From assembly GCA_947450495.1 (NCBI GenBank), contig CANFVX010000004.1, forward strand, positions 1 to 33,699: DNA of 33,699 bases, written 5' to 3'. Made by a program: the position numbers and the translations under genes. Positions 17,295 through 29,973 of the stretch are shown here, piece after piece. The notes under the pieces are model-generated. The model saw nothing but the letters and a program-made list of their open reading frames with translations, was not told where the DNA came from and did not search any database. The number at the start of each line of letters is the position of its first letter. Position 1 is the first letter of the stretch. Source of the DNA: Gammaproteobacteria bacterium (lineage in GTDB: Bacteria > Pseudomonadota > Gammaproteobacteria > Ga0077536).

Positions 17295-18440
17295 GTGCAA
17301 CTGCTCCTTTCCTTTTATTTGCTGGCGGCCAGTGCTTATGTGCTGCTGGCCATCCGCGGTCTGCTGCGGCTGAATCATCCGGCGCCCCGGGCCGGTGGCG
17401 ACTGCCCGCCGATGACGGTGCTGAAACCCCTACACGGGGACGAGCCCGGCCTGTTCGAGAACCTGTTGTCGTTCTGCCAGCAGGATTACCCGCAATATCA
17501 GGTGATTTTTGGCGTTTCCAAGGCGGACGACGCGGCCGTGGCGGTGGCCCGCCGCGTGATTGCCGCGTGTCCCGATGCCGACCTCGCGTTGGTGGTGAAC
17601 GACCGCCTGATCGGGAGCAATCGTAAAATTTGCAACGTGGCGAACTGCCATGAGCTATCCCGTTACGACATTCTGGTAATCGCTGACAGCGACATGCGCG
17701 TGGCCCCGGATTACCTGCGCCGCATCGCGAGCAGTTTTGAAGACCCGGGCGTGGCCGCAGGCACCTGCCTTTATCGCGGCCGTCCGGTAAGCGGCCTCGC
17801 CTCCTGGCTCGGCGCGGCCTACATCAACGAATGGTTTCTGCCCTCGGTGCTGGTGGCGACCAGTTTCCAATCCCTGCACTTCTGCTTTGGGGCGACGATG
17901 GCGGTGCGGCGCAGTGCGCTGGAGGCGATCGGCGGCTTCGAGCGGCTGGCCAATGAACTGGCCGACGACTATCGGCTCGGGGATCTGGTCGCATCGCAGT
18001 GCGGCAGGGTCGCTTTAATCCCTTGTATCGTCGAGAATACTGTCCATGAGCCCTCGCTCGCTTCGTTGTTAAGGCACGAACTGCGCTGGGCCCGCACCGT
18101 CCGCTCCGTGCAAGCGGGCGGGTACGCGATGTCTTTCCTGACCTATATCACGCCTGCCGCGCTGGCCTTTGCGCTGGCGGTGGGCGCCCAGCACCCGTTA
18201 GTGGGGGTTGCTGCGGTGGGTTGGGCCGTGGGGTTACGCGCGCTACTGCACGATGTGGCGCGCACTACCGTGGCACCCGGGCAGCCCGCCGCCTATGGGC
18301 TCACGGTGCTACGCGATCTCCTGTGTTTCGGCGTGTGGGTGGCGAGTTTTCTCGGCCGCAACGTTGAATGGCAGGGTTACGAATTCAAGGTGGACAAACA
18401 GGGCCACATGGAACTGAAAGGAACCGTCGAACCATCATGA
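17295..18440 (+). CDS. hpnI: HpnI, hopanoid-associated family 2/21-type glycosyltransferase
   Basis: MTVLKPLHGDEPGLFENLLSFCQQDYPQYQVIFGV, LVIADSDMRVAPDYLRRIASSF, HELRWARTVRSVQAGGYAMS; GTG start. Confidence 0.87.
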   Translation: MQLLLSFYLLAASAYVLLAIRGLLRLNHPAPRAGGDCPPMTVLKPLHGDEPGLFENLLSFCQQDYPQYQVIFGVSKADDAAVAVARRVIAACPDADLALVVNDRLIGSNRKICNVANCHELSRYDILVIADSDMRVAPDYLRRIASSFEDPGVAAGTCLYRGRPVSGLASWLGAAYINEWFLPSVLVATSFQSLHFCFGATMAVRRSALEAIGGFERLANELADDYRLGDLVASQCGRVALIPCIVENTVHEPSLASLLRHELRWARTVRSVQAGGYAMSFLTYITPAALAFALAVGAQHPLVGVAAVGWAVGLRALLHDVARTTVAPGQPAAYGLTVLRDLLCFGVWVASFLGRNVEWQGYEFKVDKQGHMELKGTVEPS

Positions 18441-19864
18441 CTATGAAAACGCTGTTTTTGAATCCGCCGTCTTTCGACGGCTTTGACGGTGGCGCCGGCT
18501 CGCGCTATCAGGCCCGCCGCGAAATCCGCTCTTTCTGGTATCCCACGTGGCTGGCGCAACCGGCCGCGATGGTCCCGAACAGCAAACTGGTTGATGCCCC
18601 CGCCCACGGCCAGACCGTGGAAGAAGTAGTGGCGATGGCCGGCGACTTCGAGTTTGCCGTGCTTCACACCAGCACCCCGTCGTTCGAGAACGACTGCAAG
18701 ATTGCCGAGGCGCTGAAGGAAAAAAATCCCAAGCTCCTCATCGGTATGGTCGGCGCGCATGTGTCGGTCAATCCGGATCCCTCCATTCGCGCTTCCAAGG
18801 CCATCGACTTCGTCGCCAACGGTGAATTCGATTACGTGTGCGTGGAAATTGCCGAAGGCAAACCGCTGGCCGAAGTCGGCGGCATCACCTGGCGCAAGGG
18901 CGAAAGCTATGTGCGCAACGCCGATCGCCCGATTATCGAAGACATGGATGCGCTGCCGTCGGTGATCGACGTGTACAAGCGCGATCTGGTCATCGAAGAC
19001 TATTTCATCGGCTACCTGCAGCACCCGTATCTGTCGGTGTACACCGGCCGTGGCTGCAAGTCGCGCTGCACTTTCTGCCTGTGGCCGCAAACGATTTCCG
19101 GTCATCGCTATCGCACCCGCAGCCCGCAGGTGGTGGCGGATGAAATCGCCAAAGCCAAGCAGTACTTCCCGCAGATCAAAGAATTTTTCTTCGACGACGA
19201 CACCTTCACCGACGACATCCCGCGCGTGGAAGAAACCGCCCGTTTGCTCGGCAAGCTCGGCATCACCTGGTCGTGCAACGCCAAGGCGAACGTGCCCTAC
19301 GAGACCTTGAAGATCATGAAGGAAAACGGCCTGCGTCTCTTGCTGGTGGGCTATGAGTCCGGCAATCGCCAGATCCTGATCAACATCCGCAAGGGCGTCA
19401 GCACGGACATCGCGCGGCGCTTCACCGCCGACTGCCACAAGCTGGGTATCGCCATCCACGGCACCTTCATCGTGGGTCTGCCGGGCGAAACCCGCGAGAC
19501 CATCGAAGAAACCATCCGCTACGCGCAGGAAATCAATCCGCACACCATTCAGGTGTCGCTGGCGGCGGCCTACCCCGGCACGCGCATTTACGCCGAAGCC
19601 CAGTCCAACAACTGGCTACGGCGTCCGGCCGGCGACGTGGTGGCCGACAACGGTCTGCAAATCAGCTCGCTCGAATACCCGCACCTGTCGCACGAAGAAA
19701 TCTTTGAAGCGCTGGCAGTGTTCTACAAGCGCTTCTACTTCCGGCCGCGCAAGATTGGCGAAATCACCTGGGAGATGCTGAAGAGCTGGACCATGATGAA
19801 GCGCCGTCTGCGCGAAGGCGTGGAGTTCTTCAACTTCCTGCGCACGCGTAACGACGCGGGCTAA
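18437..19864 (+). CDS. hpnJ: HpnJ, hopanoid-associated B12-binding/radical SAM protein
   Basis: Radical SAM CxxxCxxC in YTGRGCKSRCTFCLWPQTISGHRYRTRSPQVVADEIAKAKQYFPQIKEFFFDDDTFTDD. ATGA overlap with hpnI. ORF-track start 18368 moved to 18437. Confidence 0.92.
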   Translation: MTMKTLFLNPPSFDGFDGGAGSRYQARREIRSFWYPTWLAQPAAMVPNSKLVDAPAHGQTVEEVVAMAGDFEFAVLHTSTPSFENDCKIAEALKEKNPKLLIGMVGAHVSVNPDPSIRASKAIDFVANGEFDYVCVEIAEGKPLAEVGGITWRKGESYVRNADRPIIEDMDALPSVIDVYKRDLVIEDYFIGYLQHPYLSVYTGRGCKSRCTFCLWPQTISGHRYRTRSPQVVADEIAKAKQYFPQIKEFFFDDDTFTDDIPRVEETARLLGKLGITWSCNAKANVPYETLKIMKENGLRLLLVGYESGNRQILINIRKGVSTDIARRFTADCHKLGIAIHGTFIVGLPGETRETIEETIRYAQEINPHTIQVSLAAAYPGTRIYAEAQSNNWLRRPAGDVVADNGLQISSLEYPHLSHEEIFEALAVFYKRFYFRPRKIGEITWEMLKSWTMMKRRLREGVEFFNFLRTRNDAG

Positions 19865-22161: not shown

Positions 22162-23070
22162 TCAGGCCAGACCGAGCTTCGGCTTAACCCAGCTCGCCAG
22201 TTTGGCAATGGCGTCGTCCGCTTCCGGCGCGCGTCCCGCCATGAACTGGAAGACGTGCTGCATTTCAGGAAAGACTTCGAGTTTGCATTCGCTTCCCGCC
22301 TGACGGATGCGCTCGGCCACGCGGGTGGAATCGTCCATGATCACTTCGTAGCCGCCCACCTGCACATAGGTCGGGGGAAAGCCTTTGAAATCGGCGTACA
22401 TCATGTTGGCCGTGGGGTCTTGGCGGGAGGCGCCGCCCAAAAACAGCCCTGCCATGTTCAAAGACATGTCGCGGCTGATCAGGCGTTCGACCTTCGCATT
22501 GGTCTCGAACGAGGGGGCGGTGGCTTCCATATCGCACCAGGGTGACATGGGCATCACGGCGGCCGGCAGCGGCAGGCCGCGGTCGCGAATGGCCAGCACC
22601 ACCGACAAGCTCAGTAAGCCGCCCGCCGAGTCGCCCACCGTCGCGATGTGCTGCGGCTTGATGCCTTGCGCGAGCAGCCATTCGTAGACTTTTACGCCTT
22701 CGTTGTTTTGCGAAGGGTGGGTGTGCTCTGGCGCCCGAAGGTAGTCCACCACCAGCGCGCGGCAGCCGACGGCCTTTGCGATGTGGGCAAACATCTTGCG
22801 GTGAGAGAAGCGCGAGCCGGTCACGCAGCCGCCACCGTGAAGGGCCAACAGCACGCGATCTTCCGCACAGCCGTGCGGCACGGCCCACAGACAGGGCGTG
22901 CCCTCAACATCAATATCGAAATAATCGACCTGCCCTGGGTCCGTGGCGAGATCCCCGCATCGCTCCAGCAGGTCACGGAGTTCGTCGAGACCCATCGCGG
23001 GATTGGCCGCCATAGCAGCAACGAAACTGTCGAAAAGGTGATCAATAGCGGCGGCTTGCGGACTGGCCAT
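22162..23070 (-). CDS. Alpha/beta hydrolase, hormone-sensitive lipase (HSL) family
   Basis: VLLALHGGGCVTGS oxyanion motif, HIATVGDSAGGLLSLSVVLAIRD, VGGYEVIMDDSTRVAERIRQAG, catalytic His region PEMQHVFQFMAGRAPEA. Confidence 0.93.
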   Translation of the reverse strand: MASPQAAAIDHLFDSFVAAMAANPAMGLDELRDLLERCGDLATDPGQVDYFDIDVEGTPCLWAVPHGCAEDRVLLALHGGGCVTGSRFSHRKMFAHIAKAVGCRALVVDYLRAPEHTHPSQNNEGVKVYEWLLAQGIKPQHIATVGDSAGGLLSLSVVLAIRDRGLPLPAAVMPMSPWCDMEATAPSFETNAKVERLISRDMSLNMAGLFLGGASRQDPTANMMYADFKGFPPTYVQVGGYEVIMDDSTRVAERIRQAGSECKLEVFPEMQHVFQFMAGRAPEADDAIAKLASWVKPKLGLA

Positions 23071-23248: not shown

Positions 23249-23275
23249 AAAAAAGGCCGCATTGCTGCGGCCTTT
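23249..23275 (-). terminator. Rho-independent terminator T1, downstream of metallophosphoesterase 1
   Basis: Minus-strand AAAGGCCGCA-GCAA-TGCGGCCTTT followed by a T tract. Confidence 0.9.
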
Positions 23276-23370: not shown

Positions 23371-24720
23371 TTACTGGAAGGCGGTGATGGTCTGGATTTT
23401 GGTAGTCATGCCAAAGCTGTCGCTGAAGCCGTAGAGCTCGAGATCTACCGCGCCGCTTTGATGAACGTTCACCAACGCCCAGGCGTACCAGCGGTCGTAG
23501 GGACCTGCAGTGGTCGGCGCGGCCGGGCACGAGGTAGCGGCACCGCCACCGGTCACGCCAGCGCAGAGGCGCGCGGCTTCAAACGGCGAACCGCCAGAGC
23601 CCACTAGCACCTGCCAAGGATTCTTGGCTGTGTAGGTGTTGGTCGGATCCGGGTACTGCACCACCTTGGTGGTGTGCTCGTGACCGCAGAAGTAGGCTGC
23701 ACCGTACTGCGCCATCAGACGCCAGAAGTTGTTGCGCGGCGTCGTGTCGGCATCGAGACCGCCAGCGGCGATGCTCGGGCTCGTGGTGTAGTTATAGGTG
23801 AACGCCATCTTGTGACCGAACACGAAATACTTCACCGGCTTGCTGGCGCTCACGCCACGGGCGGCAGCGTCGCTGAAGTCGGTGGTGAGCCAAGTGGTTG
23901 GCGCGTGGCCGTCGTTGCCCGTCGGGTCGGTGTTGATGACCGCGAAGTGCAGGATGGCGCCATTGGTTTCAATGTCGAACGAGTAGGTGAGATAGGACTG
24001 GTCGGTGCCACCGACCGTGTCCGCCGCCTGCGGCGCGGTGGCAGAAGTGAGGCCGCGCACGTTGGTGGCGCCTTTGCCAACAACGCTGCTAAAGCGCTGG
24101 TTAGTGCTGAGGTCACCAATCAGGTCGCCCATATTGGCGCGGAAGGCATTCTCATTGTCGGCGGTCGACTTCTTGTCGCCGTTCGGGCAAGCAACGCCGT
24201 TTTGGCTAATAGAGGTTTTGCACTCGGTCTCGTGATTGCCGGGTACCGGCATCATGTAGGTGCCGGTTTCCAGCGCGTTTGCCGCCATGCCGCGCCAGAA
24301 GGCGTACTGCACGTAGAGCTGGGTGATGTCGGAGTTCACCACAGCGTTGAGAGCCGGTGCGGCGGAGCTCCAGCTTGCCGGCACAACGGCGTTGCGGTAA
24401 CCCATGATCATGTCGCCGTTGATGAAGAACATCTTCGGCTTCTGGGCCTGAACCGAGCGCAGGATGCGGCCCCAGGCCTTGGAGTTCTGCAGCCAGATTT
24501 TGTCCTGAACCAGCAGTTTGGCGCCAACCGTGTTCGGCGGCACGAGCTGGGTGGAATCCGGTTTGTCCGGGTCCTGGCGGGTGTCGCCGATGCTGGCGAA
24601 GGAAAAGACGACCGGGTCGTTAACGGCGTACGCGGCGGTGCCGGCGGTAGCCATCACCGTGCCGAGCGCGAAGCCGGCAATAAGCCGCTTTAAGGAAGAT
24701 TTGGGCGGTTGAACGAGCAT
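23371..24720 (-). CDS. Secreted metallophosphoesterase (calcineurin-like), paralog 1
   Basis: Sec signal peptide (KRLIAGFALGTVMATAGTAAYA); GDTRQ, NGDMIMG, PGNHETEC, FGHKMAF, CGHEHTT. 449 aa. Confidence 0.9.
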   Translation of the reverse strand: MLVQPPKSSLKRLIAGFALGTVMATAGTAAYAVNDPVVFSFASIGDTRQDPDKPDSTQLVPPNTVGAKLLVQDKIWLQNSKAWGRILRSVQAQKPKMFFINGDMIMGYRNAVVPASWSSAAPALNAVVNSDITQLYVQYAFWRGMAANALETGTYMMPVPGNHETECKTSISQNGVACPNGDKKSTADNENAFRANMGDLIGDLSTNQRFSSVVGKGATNVRGLTSATAPQAADTVGGTDQSYLTYSFDIETNGAILHFAVINTDPTGNDGHAPTTWLTTDFSDAAARGVSASKPVKYFVFGHKMAFTYNYTTSPSIAAGGLDADTTPRNNFWRLMAQYGAAYFCGHEHTTKVVQYPDPTNTYTAKNPWQVLVGSGGSPFEAARLCAGVTGGGAATSCPAAPTTAGPYDRWYAWALVNVHQSGAVDLELYGFSDSFGMTTKIQTITAFQ

Positions 24721-24943
24721 GCGATGACTCCTGACAAGGAATTTCGGGTTTTGGGTTGCCCACCGGCCGAGGCGCGAAGGACCTGCTTTGCGGCGCCTTA
24801 GCGAGCGGGACAGTAGGGCACGATGGAATTCTGGTGGTCGTATATGACGTGCATGCGAAACGAGTGCGCCGCCACGCCGGTTTCAGTAAGACAGCCTTTC
24901 ACCACTTCCACATGGCGCTCGGAGGACAACGAAGCGGGGCAAT

Positions 24944-24970
24944 AAAAAAGGCCGCATTGCAGCGGCCTTT
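24944..24970 (-). terminator. Rho-independent terminator T2, downstream of the PEP-CTERM gene
   Basis: Plus-strand AAAAAAGGCCGC-ATTGCA-GCGGCCTTT; T tract on the minus strand. Nearly identical to T1. Confidence 0.9.
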
Positions 24971-24989
24971 GGAGATCAGAACTGGGGAG

Positions 24990-25018
24990 CCCGCTGACCG
25001 ATGCGATCGGCCAGCGGG
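24990..25018. other. Inverted repeat immediately downstream of the PEP-CTERM gene
   Basis: CCCGCTG-A-CCGAT / ATCGG-C-CAGCGGG with GCG loop and one internal mismatch. Confidence 0.55.
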
Positions 25019-25026
25019 TTCTGGGC

Positions 25027-25650
25027 TTAGACCTGCGCGACCCGACGCTTGCGACGCCCGCCGAGCCCCAGCACGCCGCTGCCGAGCAGCAGCAGCGAGG
25101 CCGGTAGCGGCACGGGCTGAGCGTCCACTTTCACGGAGAGGGTGGTGCCGCTCAAGCCCTGATAGGCAGCGCCCGTGTTGAACGCATAGCCCAGCGCCGG
25201 CGCGGTGCCGCCAGCGGCGCCCGTGCTCAGTTCGAGGCCAGCGGTCGTGTCATCGGTGCCAACTTCAAACGCCGCCCAGTAGTTGCCCGCCGCGAGGCCG
25301 GTGAGCGACAGACCGGAGACGCCGTTGTAGCCGTCGCCATTCCAGGTCGCTTGCCAGGTCCCGATTTGGGTGCCGGGCAGGCTGCCGCTACCGTCGGCCG
25401 CGTAGAGCGCCACCGAGAAGGTGTCGCCCACGGTGCCGCCGGTGAGGTAGGCCTGAAGGCTATTGAGGGCCTGACCGTCGGCCAGCGAGAATGCTGCCGC
25501 CGCGAAATCGCTGCCGTCCAGCATGATCGGCGCGCCGCTGCCGGGGGTGCCGGTGTCGAGCACCAGTGCCGCGTGCGCGGCGCCGGTGCTGGCCAGCAGG
25601 GCCAGGCCCAGCAGCGCACGATGCATGCGCGGTGAGTGTTGCTTGCTCAT
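25027..25650 (-). CDS. PEP-CTERM sorting-domain protein (exosortase substrate)
   Basis: Signal peptide, low-complexity Gly/Ala/Thr-rich body, C-terminal VPLPASLLLLGSGVLGLGGRRKRRVAQV (VPxPAS, TM helix, Arg/Lys cluster). ATG at 25650 with AAGGGG upstream; the ORF-track start 25659 is a GTG. Confidence 0.9.
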   Translation of the reverse strand: MSKQHSPRMHRALLGLALLASTGAAHAALVLDTGTPGSGAPIMLDGSDFAAAAFSLADGQALNSLQAYLTGGTVGDTFSVALYAADGSGSLPGTQIGTWQATWNGDGYNGVSGLSLTGLAAGNYWAAFEVGTDDTTAGLELSTGAAGGTAPALGYAFNTGAAYQGLSGTTLSVKVDAQPVPLPASLLLLGSGVLGLGGRRKRRVAQV

Positions 25651-25662
25651 GTGCTGCACCCC

Positions 25663-27012
25663 TTACTGGAAGTTGGCGACGGACTGGATTTTAGTCGTCG
25701 GGCCAAAGGTGTTGCTGAAGCCGTAGAGGTCCATATCCACCTTGCCGCTCTGATGCACCTTGACCAGCGCCCAAGCGTACCAGCGGTCGTATTGGCTGGC
25801 GGTCGCCGGCTCGGACGAGCAGGACGTGGCCGCACCACCGGCGGTCGTGCCGGCGCAGCTGCGCTTGGCGTCGAACGGCGAACCGCCGGAACCCACCAGC
25901 ACCTGCCAGGGGTTCTTGCTGGTGTAAGTGTTGGTCGGATCCGCGTACTGGGCGACGCTGGTGGTGTGCTCGTGGCCGCAGAAGTAGGCGCCGTTGTACT
26001 GCGCCATCAGCTTCCAGAAGGCATTACGTGGGGCGACGTCCGCATCCAGACCGCCGGCCGCAATCGAACCGCTCGCCTGATAGTTGTACGTGAACGCCAT
26101 TTTGTGGCCGAACACGAAGTACTTCACAGCCTTGCCGGCGGTGACACCACGGGCGGCGGCGGCGCTGAAGTCGCTCGTCAACCAGCTGGTCGGGGCGTGG
26201 CCGTCGTTGCCGGTCGGGTCGGTATTGATCACGGCGAAGTGCAGGATGGCGCCGCCGGTTTCAAGATCGAACGAGTAGGTGAGGAAGGACTGGTCGGTGC
26301 CGCCGGTGGTGTCCGCCGTCTGCGGGGCGCTGGCCTGCGTCAAGCCGCTGACGTTGGTCGGGGTCTTGCCGACGATGCTGCTGAAGCGCTGGTTGGCGGT
26401 CAGGTCGCCAATCAGGTCGCTCATGTTGGCGCGGAAGGCGTTTTCGTTGTCGACGGTGGACTTCTTGTCGCCGTTGGCGCAGGCCACACCGTTCTTGGAG
26501 ATCGCGTTTTTGCACTGGGTCTCGTGGTTACCCGGCACCGGCATCATGTAGGTGCCGGTTTCCAGCGCGTTCGCCGCCATGCCGCGCCAGAAGGCGTACT
26601 GCACATAGAGCTGGGTAATGTCGGAGTTCACGACCGTGCTGATGGACGGGGCGGTGGACCAGCTGGCCGGCACGACCGGGTTCACATAGCCCATGATCAT
26701 GTCGCCGTTGATGAAGAACATCTTCGGCTTCTGGGCCTGCACGCTGCGCAGGATGCGGCCCCAGGCCTTGGAGTTTTGCAGCCAGATTTTGTCCTGGGTC
26801 AGCAGTTTGCCGCCAACGGTGGCCGGCGGGAGAATCTGGGTGGCGTCCGGGGAATCCGGGTCCTGACGGGTGTCGCCAACCGTGGCGAAGGAAAAGACGA
26901 CCGGGTCGGTTTCGACGGCATACGCGGCGGTGCCGACGGTGGCCATCACGGTGCCGAGCGCGAAGCCGGCGACGAGCCGCTTCAAGGCGGACTTGGGCTG
27001 GGAAACGAGCAT
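25663..27012 (-). CDS. Secreted metallophosphoesterase (calcineurin-like), paralog 2
   Basis: Same signal peptide type and motifs as paralog 1 (GDTRQ, NGDMIMG, PGNHETQC, FGHKMAF, CGHEHTT). 449 aa from MLVSQPKSALKRL at 27012; ORF-track start 27138 adds an unsupported N-terminus. Confidence 0.9.
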   Translation of the reverse strand: MLVSQPKSALKRLVAGFALGTVMATVGTAAYAVETDPVVFSFATVGDTRQDPDSPDATQILPPATVGGKLLTQDKIWLQNSKAWGRILRSVQAQKPKMFFINGDMIMGYVNPVVPASWSTAPSISTVVNSDITQLYVQYAFWRGMAANALETGTYMMPVPGNHETQCKNAISKNGVACANGDKKSTVDNENAFRANMSDLIGDLTANQRFSSIVGKTPTNVSGLTQASAPQTADTTGGTDQSFLTYSFDLETGGAILHFAVINTDPTGNDGHAPTSWLTSDFSAAAARGVTAGKAVKYFVFGHKMAFTYNYQASGSIAAGGLDADVAPRNAFWKLMAQYNGAYFCGHEHTTSVAQYADPTNTYTSKNPWQVLVGSGGSPFDAKRSCAGTTAGGAATSCSSEPATASQYDRWYAWALVKVHQSGKVDMDLYGFSNTFGPTTKIQSVANFQ

Positions 27013-27078: not shown

Positions 27079-27254
27079 CCGAACGACAGGTGACAAGCAA
27101 TGACGCCACCCTGCCTCCGGCCTCCTGATTCTGGCCAAGTGTTATGACGAGCCTGAGACCGCAGGCTGAAGATTCGGCCTAAAAATTTGCGGCTACCAGG
27201 CGCGATGGCCGGTGCGCATTGAGGACTCTCCCGCCGCGGCGGCGCCCTCCGCGC

Positions 27255-29006
27255 TCAGACCGGCAGTTCGCCGCCCTCACGCTGCAGCCGATGCAGCCGG
27301 GCATAGCTCCCGCCGGCGGCGATGAGTTGCTGATGGGAGCCCTGCTCGACGATCCGGCCGTGTTCGATAACGACGATGCGGTCGCAGGCTTCGATGGTCG
27401 AGAGCCGGTGGGCCACGATGAGACAGGTGCGGCCCTTACGGAGCACACCCAGCGCCTGCTGGATGCGGCGCTCGGATTCGGCGTCGAGCGCGGAGGTCGC
27501 TTCATCCAGAATCAGAATCGGCGCGTCTTTCAGCAGCGCGCGCGCAATCGCCAGCCGTTGGCGCTGACCGCCCGAGAGTCGCAGCCCATCGTCGCCGATC
27601 ACGGTCTCGAAGCCGCGCGGCAGGGCCTGCACGAAGTCGGTCACGAAGGCGGCCTCGGCGGCGGCGGCAATCTCGGCGTCGGATTTCGTCCGCAGGCTGC
27701 CATAGGCGATGTTGTGGGCGACGGTGTCGTTAAACAGCACGACATGCTGGCCGACGTAGGCGATGGTCTCGCGCAAGCCGGCTAAGTCCAGCGTGTCGAT
27801 GGGAATGTCGTCGATGAGAATCCGCCCGGCCTGCGGCACATAAAAGCGCGGCACCAGATTCACCAGACTGGTTTTACCGCCGCCCGACGCGCCGACCAGC
27901 GCCACCGATTCGCCGGCGGCGATCTCAAGATTGAGGTCGCTCAGAATCAGCCGGTTGTCGTAGCCGAAGTTCACGTGCTCAAAGCGGATGGCGCCTCGCA
28001 CGGTGTCCGGCAGGCGGGCGGTGCCGCCCGTTTCCGGGGTTTCGTCCATCAGCGCGAAAAAGCTCTCGCTCGCGGCGAGGCCGCGCTGCAGGTGCTCATT
28101 TACGCCCGTGACCCGCTTGATGGGCGCCAGCAGCATCGCGGTCGCGGCCACGAACGAGACGAAATCCCCGCGCGAGAGCTGGCCGGCGGCCGCTTCCTTC
28201 AAGGCAAACGCCATCATCACCCCAAGCCCCAGCGCGATGATGACCTGCAGCGCGGGCTCGGTGCCGGCGGCGGTGCCGATGACTTTCATCTGCAGCTTGC
28301 GCGCGTTGTTGATAGCGCGCCCGAAGCGCTCGGTCTCGTAGGCCTGCCCGCCGAACACTTTGACATCGCGCTGCCCGCCGATGGCTTCCTCGGTGACGAT
28401 AGTGATCTCGCCCATCGAGTCCTGAAGCCGCCGGCTGCTGCTGCGCAGGCGCTGGGACACGCGGCTGATGAGCAGCGCGATAAACGGCCCCATCACGAGC
28501 AGGAACAGCGCCAGGCGCCAGTTCAGAAACAGCATGTAGCCGGTAAGCGCCACCAGCAGCACGGTGTCTTTGACCAGCACGGTCAGCACGTGGGTGGCGG
28601 CCTGCGCGACCTGGGTCACATCGAAGGTGAACTTGGACATCAACTCCCCGGCTGCCCGCTGGTCGTAGAAGCGGGCCGGGAGGGTGATGAGCGCGCTGAA
28701 CATTTCGCGGCGGATATCCCGCATCACGCGCTGAGCGACGTCCGCCAGCCCCACGGTAGCGACATAGCTCAAGCCCCCGCGAACGGCGAGCAAAACAGTG
28801 AGCGCGAGCGGGATGAGCAAGAGCTGCAGGCCGCGATCGGCGCCAAATTCATGGTCCACCAGATAGCGCAGGAAGGCCGGGAGCACCCATTCGGTGGAAC
28901 CCAGCGCCACCATGCCGAGCAGAGACCCCAGAAAGACGGTCCGATACGGTTTGAGGTAGGCGAGTAGTCTGAGGTATAGCCGGGTGCTGTCGGTCGCGGG
29001 ATCCAT
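27255..29006 (-). CDS. msbA: Lipid A/lipid ABC exporter, MsbA-like (fused TM and ATPase domains)
   Basis: TM half followed by Walker A ALVGASGGGKTSLVNLVPRFY, signature LRLSGGQRQRLAIARALLKDAPILILDEATSALD, H-loop VAHRLSTIEACDRIVVIEHGRIVEQGSHQQL. Start MDPATDSTRL at 29006. Confidence 0.9.
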   Translation of the reverse strand: MDPATDSTRLYLRLLAYLKPYRTVFLGSLLGMVALGSTEWVLPAFLRYLVDHEFGADRGLQLLLIPLALTVLLAVRGGLSYVATVGLADVAQRVMRDIRREMFSALITLPARFYDQRAAGELMSKFTFDVTQVAQAATHVLTVLVKDTVLLVALTGYMLFLNWRLALFLLVMGPFIALLISRVSQRLRSSSRRLQDSMGEITIVTEEAIGGQRDVKVFGGQAYETERFGRAINNARKLQMKVIGTAAGTEPALQVIIALGLGVMMAFALKEAAAGQLSRGDFVSFVAATAMLLAPIKRVTGVNEHLQRGLAASESFFALMDETPETGGTARLPDTVRGAIRFEHVNFGYDNRLILSDLNLEIAAGESVALVGASGGGKTSLVNLVPRFYVPQAGRILIDDIPIDTLDLAGLRETIAYVGQHVVLFNDTVAHNIAYGSLRTKSDAEIAAAAEAAFVTDFVQALPRGFETVIGDDGLRLSGGQRQRLAIARALLKDAPILILDEATSALDAESERRIQQALGVLRKGRTCLIVAHRLSTIEACDRIVVIEHGRIVEQGSHQQLIAAGGSYARLHRLQREGGELPV

Positions 29007-29085
29007 CACGCTACTATGCCCAAGGCCCTGCCGGTTTGCACCCCGCGGCGGCCAGGCGCAAGCGATACCGAGAGGCTTCCCGCCC

Positions 29086-29973
29086 ATGAGTGAAAAACAT
29101 CCCATCGTTGCGGTGACCGGCTCGTCCGGCGCTGGTACTTCCAGCGTCACCACCGCGTTTGAGCATATCTTCCAGCGTCAGCGTCTCAGCGCGGCGTGGA
29201 TTGAGGGCGATAGCCTGCATCGACACGATCGCGCCCGCATGGCCCGCGAGGTGGAGCTTGCGGCGCAGGAAGGCCGCACGCTCACCCACTTCGGGCCGGA
29301 CGGCAATCTGTTTAACGAGCTCGTCGAACTCTTCCGGGGCTATGGCGAGACCGGCACCGGACGGCGACGGCATTATCTGCATACGCCGGAAGACGCGCTC
29401 GAGCACGGCGGCGATCCCGGCACTTTCACCCCCTGGGAAGCGCTGCCCGAGCACTCCGATTTGCTGTTCTACGAGGGCCTGCACGGCGGTCTGGTGACCG
29501 AAGACCACAACGTCGCCCGTCACGTCGACCTGCTGATTGGCGTGGTGCCGATCATCAATCTCGAGTGGATCCAGAAAATTCATCGCGACCGCGCCGTGCG
29601 CGGCTACAGCGCCGAGACCGCCACGCAGATGATCCTCCGCCGCATGCCCGACTACGTGCACTACATCTGCCCGCAGTTCTCGCGCACGGATATCAATTTC
29701 CAGCGCATCCCGACTATCGATACCTCGAACCCCTTCACCGCCAGCGAAATCCCCACCAACGACGAAAGCATGGTGGTGATCCAGATTGCCAATCTGCAGA
29801 AGTTAAAGCCGGATTTCCGCGCCCTGCTGGAGATGCTGCAGGGCTCGTTCATGTCGCGGCCAGATACGCTGGTGGTGCCGGCGGGCAAGAACGTGTTTGC
29901 GATGGAGCTCCTGCTGGCGCCGGCGATCGGGCGCCTGATCGAGCGCCGCAACCAGATCCGCGCCGGGTGCTAA
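29086..29973 (+). CDS. prkB: Phosphoribulokinase (PrkB/CbbP type I)
   Basis: PIVAVTGSSGAGTSSVTTAFEHIF, IEGDSLHRHDRARM, THFGPDGNLFNELVELFRGYGETGTGRRRHYLHTPEDA, LLFYEGLHGG, LLIGVVPIINLEWIQKIHRD. Confidence 0.92.
   Translation: MSEKHPIVAVTGSSGAGTSSVTTAFEHIFQRQRLSAAWIEGDSLHRHDRARMAREVELAAQEGRTLTHFGPDGNLFNELVELFRGYGETGTGRRRHYLHTPEDALEHGGDPGTFTPWEALPEHSDLLFYEGLHGGLVTEDHNVARHVDLLIGVVPIINLEWIQKIHRDRAVRGYSAETATQMILRRMPDYVHYICPQFSRTDINFQRIPTIDTSNPFTASEIPTNDESMVVIQIANLQKLKPDFRALLEMLQGSFMSRPDTLVVPAGKNVFAMELLLAPAIGRLIERRNQIRAGC

Follow-up and report, generated by a model that had tools for sequence, protein, structure and literature searches.

In a 33,699-nucleotide stretch of a gammaproteobacterial genome (contig CANFVX010000004.1 of assembly GCA_947450495.1; hereafter the window), we found that a gene for an exported calcineurin-like phosphoesterase and the gene for a small PEP-CTERM protein directly downstream form a pair that is conserved in other genomes. 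This conserved pairing is accompanied by the presence of exosortases, by PHO-box enrichment upstream of related loci and by linkage to a di-haem enzyme. Given that PHO-box enrichment, pair conservation and di-haem linkage together point to phosphate starvation, the pair probably represents a phosphate-scavenging module under PhoB control, in which an exported phosphatase is combined with a beta-sandwich protein sorted by an exosortase and usually also with a di-haem enzyme. That the proteins are enzymatically active, interact physically and reside at the surface, and that phosphate starvation induces the genes in the window organism, is what we infer from these observations. The locus comprises the following features, each with the basis of its assignment (ORF, open reading frame):

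25663..27012, minus strand: paralog 2, an exported calcineurin-like (distantly purple-acid-phosphatase-like) phosphoesterase of 449 amino acids (aa), first gene of the pair (ORF, Pfam, alignment)
25027..25650, minus strand: PEP-CTERM (VPLPA-type) gene whose product has a signal peptide, a body predicted as a beta-sandwich and an exosortase signal at its C terminus (Pfam, model)
24947..24970, minus strand: intrinsic terminator-like hairpin ending the paralog 2/PEP-CTERM unit (hairpin scan)
23371..24720, minus strand: paralog 1, a solo phosphoesterase of 449 aa, ortholog of the single copy in a sister species (ORF, tree, flanks)
23252..23275, minus strand: terminator hairpin 3' of paralog 1, AAAGGCCGCAGCAATGCGGCCTTT, near-identical to that of the PEP-CTERM gene (read from the sequence)
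27144..27161, minus strand: weak PHO-box-like CGGTCTCAGGCTCGTCAT, about −149 from paralog 2, not significant at p = 0.18 (PHO matrix)

The ORF coordinates agree with a first-pass annotation, made from the letters alone, that had described two homologous minus-strand genes of 1350 bp offset by 2292 bp with a PEP-CTERM gene between them. Each ORF spans 1350 nt including the stop codon, the starts lie 2292 nt apart, and the products are 81% identical along their whole length. The middle gene, which matched PF07589 (24.3 bits, cut-off 20.7), starts with an ATG at 25650, exactly 12 nt past the TAA of paralog 2, and ends at 25027; an alternative GTG start lies 9 nt further upstream of this ATG.

A scan of 85,000 species genomes yielded 37 loci with phosphoesterase relatives at 37–77% identity. 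In 11 loci besides the window's, the phosphoesterase was directly followed, about −3 to 34 nt away, by a PEP-CTERM gene of 205–219 aa (the one in L029 was recognised inside a longer spurious ORF, whose in-frame 3' part it forms), so that the adjacency proposed in the first-pass annotation as worth scoring across genomes is indeed conserved, and unbroken for the PEP-CTERM family. The PEP-CTERM proteins of the pair loci form one alignable family, and its profile detected 12 clear copies in the 37 carrier genomes, all 12 directly downstream of a phosphoesterase; a 13th match covered the sorting tail only and was excluded. The same profile search found no family copy in those carrier genomes that had solo phosphoesterases only. 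Given that the 37 genomes were picked for the phosphoesterase, this linkage applies within carriers only. Partner identities covaried pairwise (r = 0.86; none of 300 permutations as high), and the paired state requires three changes on the phosphoesterase tree, at least two of which are forced by well-supported branches. The phosphoesterase itself stood without a PEP-CTERM partner in 25 of the 37 loci, and random sampling of the class recovered it in one of 369 genomes. Viral or plasmid spread was rejected, as no viral contig encodes a relative; one relative (at 41%), without partner, was located on a Deinococcus plasmid. The record titles of two loci, L006 (Klebsiella pneumoniae) and L008 (Mycobacteriaceae bacterium), look like mislabelled metagenome-assembled genomes (MAGs): L006 sits at the same contig place as G002, a congener of the window organism, and L008 groups with a Nevskia locus.

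The PEP-CTERM protein carries a signal peptide (read by eye) and a VPLPA-type tail reading VPLPAS, and its body was modelled as a beta-sandwich (pLDDT 74) whose best match among solved structures was one of Cwp84 containing a lectin-like domain (E = 1.7e-4, TM 0.46). No named NCBIfam family covers this body; the nearest neighbour, far under its cut-off and by the C-terminal half, was the flocculation protein PepA. Two exosortases are present in the window genome, XrtA (302 bits, cut-off 208) and the VPLPA-specific XrtD (573 bits, cut-off 400), the latter matching the VPLPA tail, and the genome encodes six other PEP-CTERM genes. The protein thus resembles substrates of PEP-CTERM/exosortase systems (PF07589; TIGR03370 with XrtD, TIGR04152) in its signal peptide, VPLPA/VPEP motif, hydrophobic helix and basic tail, and exosortase cleavage and surface delivery are predicted; unlike described systems, the window family is paired with a phosphatase, a pairing absent from searchable papers. 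Exosortases were detected in 10 of 11 pair genomes versus 17 of 25 solo genomes, a difference that was not significant (p = 0.22), and exosortase presence was rejected as a discriminator of paired and solo states. The first-pass proposal, in which a phosphoesterase module is tied to an envelope protein sorted by an exosortase, withstands the two refuting conditions named with it, adjacency in this strain only and a genome lacking exosortases, given the recurrence in 11 loci and the presence of XrtA and XrtD; the exception is its bracketing by two paralogs. To our knowledge, most exosortase-sorted proteins have no known function; here, one small family gains an invariable enzyme partner and a probable regulon, which makes its role directly testable.

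PF00149 (Metallophos) scores of the phosphoesterases were borderline (22.1 and 21.5 bits for the two paralogs, cut-off 21.5), with the relative in L039 scoring 34. Both paralogs have a Sec-type signal peptide ending in AYA, as read from the sequence. They share the motifs GDTRQ, NGD, GNHE, FGHK and CGHEH as first annotated, and the alignment of 31 relatives adds that motif I is D-x-R in all 31, in place of the canonical D-x-H. D47, D104, N162, H163, H303, H347 and H349 were invariant or near-invariant in this alignment. The metal-ligand residues D47, D104, N162 (≥90%), H303, H347 and H349 are kept, and four of the five PF00149 metal motifs (D-x-H, GD, GNH, H and GHxH) are retained, the histidine of motif I being replaced by arginine. 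Plain sequence search found no relative in the PDB; by profile, the best match was a plant purple acid phosphatase (E = 4.5e-5). An AlphaFold model (pLDDT 78) gave fold-level-only matches to Lmo2642 and 5'-nucleotidases, and a fold search with it returned general calcineurin-type matches only (2xmo, TM 0.42–0.46). Like purple acid phosphatases and phytases (PDB 6git, 6gja; PF00149), the window family is exported and conserves the GD, GNHE, H and GHxH motifs. However, the purple acid phosphatase signature (D-x-G and GDxxY, with the tyrosine as ligand to Fe(III)) is replaced by D-x-R and GDxxxxY, which is why we consider the family distantly related to these enzymes and not a member. Its D-x-R sets it apart from most PF00149 proteins as well, the invariant tyrosine lies at +5 after GD instead of +3, and overall similarity to purple acid phosphatases is very low.

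We searched the regions upstream of module operons, one for each locus, for PHO boxes, defined as 7-4-7 direct repeats, and compared their scores with those of first-order Markov sequences. Eight of the 12 loci reached p<0.05 (combined p = 2e-9), the signal was much weaker at other spacings, and none of 200 column-permuted matrices performed as well. Upstream of 33 unrelated di-haem genes, used as a control, two regions reached p<0.05 (combined p = 0.29). The module resembles Pho regulon phosphatases (PhoA, PhoX, PhoD and PafA) in its exported phosphatase and, in relatives, its upstream PHO boxes, but differs from them in having a dedicated exosortase-sorted partner and a usual di-haem companion. 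The phosphoesterase family is, we assume, also distinct from all four.

An intact PF03150 di-haem gene of the MauG/cytochrome c peroxidase (CCP) type occurred within about 4 kb in 9 of the 12 pair loci, compared to none of the 25 solo loci (p = 1.8e-6, an optimistic value because the loci are related). L020 holds a decayed remnant, and L035, in which the contig ends within the phosphoesterase gene, also carries a di-haem gene. The gene lies upstream of the pair in some clades and downstream in others, indicating that the linkage is more than frozen synteny. Twelve other subfamily members in the same genomes adjoin PF04185 phosphoesterases (five), outer-membrane porins (six) or a contig end (one); the six porins weakly resemble phosphate-selective porin O/P, with three scoring over the Pfam cut-off and three just under it. 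PHO boxes were not found upstream of the PF04185 and porin loci (combined p 0.55 and 0.36). Among 369 genomes drawn regardless of phosphatases, one further member was detected, again beside a PF04185 phosphoesterase; the more distant di-haem genes in this draw had no phosphatase neighbours by the profiles used, and one porin-profile match that Pfam did not confirm. A further blind search for such members yielded no more than two congeners of G332.

The gene order in L125 is an acid phosphatase (TIGR03397, 625 bits), a PEP-CTERM protein that is a distant full-length homologue of the window family (34.7 bits) and a di-haem enzyme. Here, a Burkholderia-type acid phosphatase (TIGR03397/PF04185) fills the phosphatase slot of the module, although the window phosphatase is non-homologous to it. 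Module di-haem genes as one clade were rejected (approximately unbiased test, p = 0.0099), the L125 gene falling inside. As in the MbnH/MbnP and MauG pairs (TIGR04039, TIGR03791), a same-superfamily di-haem enzyme stands beside an exported partner in module relatives, but scores against these families were far lower than their cut-offs (93.6–114.3 against 362.85 for TIGR04039, the MbnH family; 74.6–82.5 against 443.85 for TIGR03791), and the partners are phosphatases, PEP-CTERM proteins and porins in place of MbnP.

MauG acts on methylamine dehydrogenase, and MbnH on MbnP, by oxidative maturation or redox tuning. By analogy, the di-haem enzyme might mature or tune the phosphatase or the PEP-CTERM partner and constitute an undescribed subfamily dedicated to phosphate acquisition, serving non-homologous phosphatases and OprO/P-like porins, although we regard this as unlikely; peroxide removal and electron transfer are plain alternatives. 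Because the partners are non-homologous, a modification specific to a single phosphatase is somewhat less likely, and the PEP-CTERM protein, a metal chemistry common to the partners or mere co-regulation may account for the association. Why phosphate scavenging would need a MauG-type oxidase or peroxidase is a new question posed by a di-haem subfamily that is repeatedly linked to unrelated phosphatases.

For the module as a whole, we propose that paralog 2 and the PEP-CTERM gene would form a two-gene unit whose products scavenge phosphate, outside the inner membrane, from organic phosphate esters. Exported via Sec, the phosphoesterase would cleave phosphomonoesters (or diesters) using a binuclear metal centre of the calcineurin/purple acid phosphatase type. 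After processing by XrtD, the PEP-CTERM protein would reach the outer envelope or matrix and there probably keep the phosphatase in place or position it. Under phosphate starvation, PhoB would turn the unit on in relatives, where a periplasmic di-haem enzyme would join it. Paralog 1 would be an older tandem copy standing without a PEP-CTERM gene.

Several observations weigh against this proposal. No di-haem gene lies near the window copies, and the window genome and its sister lack the module di-haem subfamily, their sole PF03150 gene being far off on the tree. Upstream of the window's own copies, no PHO box was significant (p = 0.18 and 0.55), and the PHO matrix was drawn up from the known consensus, so that the controls carry the weight. 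The PEP-CTERM tail scored under the TIGR03370 VPLPA cut-off (21.8 versus 25.35), and no exosortase was found in the pair genome L010, a fragmented MAG. Finally, given D-x-R instead of D-x-H in motif I, the metal site may differ from the canonical calcineurin type.

Two other explanations appear improbable to a similar degree. The phosphoesterase could act on an envelope or matrix substrate, such as exopolysaccharide phosphate, other phosphorylated polymers or extracellular DNA, in biofilm or matrix remodelling and not in phosphate nutrition, with the PEP-CTERM protein as the matrix component being modified. PEP-CTERM proteins in general are located in the matrix or at the surface and are produced along with exopolysaccharide, and both the PepA neighbour and the lectin-like resemblance of the model are consistent with such a role, but the PHO boxes upstream of modules, the acid phosphatase in the L125 slot and the porins adjoining di-haem relatives favour phosphate nutrition. 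In several genera, solo phosphoesterases have a TonB-dependent receptor as neighbour (in L019, L032 and L033 immediately upstream and in the same orientation), which also fits nutrient scavenging. Alternatively, the phosphatase and the PEP-CTERM protein could share a PhoB operon and act independently, without physical or functional contact, in line with the roughly two thirds of phosphoesterase loci, and paralog 1 likewise, that lack the partner. Against this stand a PEP-CTERM family that never occurred without the phosphoesterase in the 37 genomes (picked for the latter), the minimum of two changes that the paired state needs on the tree and a distant PEP-CTERM homologue beside a non-homologous phosphatase. 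A chance arrangement in one strain with local tandem duplication and no wider meaning, which a phosphoesterase in only two of nine genus genomes might suggest, is refuted by the same order and close spacing in 11 further loci and by the 12/12 downstream placement.

The bracketing of the PEP-CTERM gene by two paralogs did not hold up as a conserved layout. In the genus survey, the phosphoesterase was present in the window genome and one sister species, and the tandem duplication in the window genome alone, so that a conserved tandem duplication was rejected. The majority of module genomes carry a single phosphoesterase; in JR-MC-A-240519-37, two complete pairs lie on different contigs. In the window, msbA (27255–29153) flanks the locus upstream and an alpha/beta hydrolase gene (22162–23070) downstream, ordinary flanks by Pfam/NCBIfam, and the sister species carries a single solo copy between msbA and the same hydrolase. 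This copy groups with paralog 1 (bootstrap 93, SH-aLRT 63), and its 5' and 3' flanks both align with those of paralog 1. In the simplest history, duplication preceded the split of the two species, the PEP-CTERM gene was absent or lost from the copy that became paralog 1, and the paralog 2/PEP-CTERM unit was lost in the sister; gain in the window lineage would also be compatible with these data. The near-identical hairpin after paralog 1, which has a short T tail and was not listed by the terminator scan, supports duplication of a unit including its 3' end. The bracketing thus arose because the unit was duplicated, and of the two paralogs only paralog 2 is the partner of the PEP-CTERM gene. Given a dN/dS (nonsynonymous to synonymous rate ratio) of about 0.2 between them, both paralogs look maintained under constraint.

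The phosphoesterase/PEP-CTERM gene set looks undescribed: we found no paper with both metallophosphoesterase and PEP-CTERM in the open literature, and the novelty of the layout is provisional given that subscription papers were outside the search. MauG and PEP-CTERM occurred together in only one open study, on Geobacter and cobalt (PMC7726332), and no open paper bearing, by title or abstract, on cytochrome c peroxidase joined with the Pho regulon or a porin was found. The MbnP/MbnH pair has been described as mysterious partners (PMC3621798).

Other gene arrangements were noted in passing. At L127:774-4032 (contig C33), the only PF03150 gene of the window genome, which encodes a 630-aa MbnH-like di-haem protein, directly follows a gene of the selenium-binding-protein (SBP56) family in the same orientation. 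A di-haem gene directly beside a beta-barrel porin (weak Porin_O_P) occurred six times (L118–L123), representing a second recurrent two-gene unit. In L124 (3926-5419), a gene for a 497-aa protein with a PEP-CTERM-like tail, apparently an SGNH/GDSL-type hydrolase by its N-terminal motif IKILFVGDSYTFGR, converges on a PF04185 phosphoesterase/di-haem pair. A family of 397–427 aa with no Pfam or NCBIfam match above cut-off overlaps the di-haem stop by 4 nt, its gene lying between those for the di-haem enzyme and the phosphatase, in L008 (4107-5300) and L009 (4087-5370). Within the window, HpnJ, a hopanoid biosynthesis radical SAM protein (TIGR03471, 796 bits), is encoded at 18368-19864 on the plus strand and adjoins a family-21 glycosyltransferase gene at 17295-18440, both being part of a hopanoid gene cluster.

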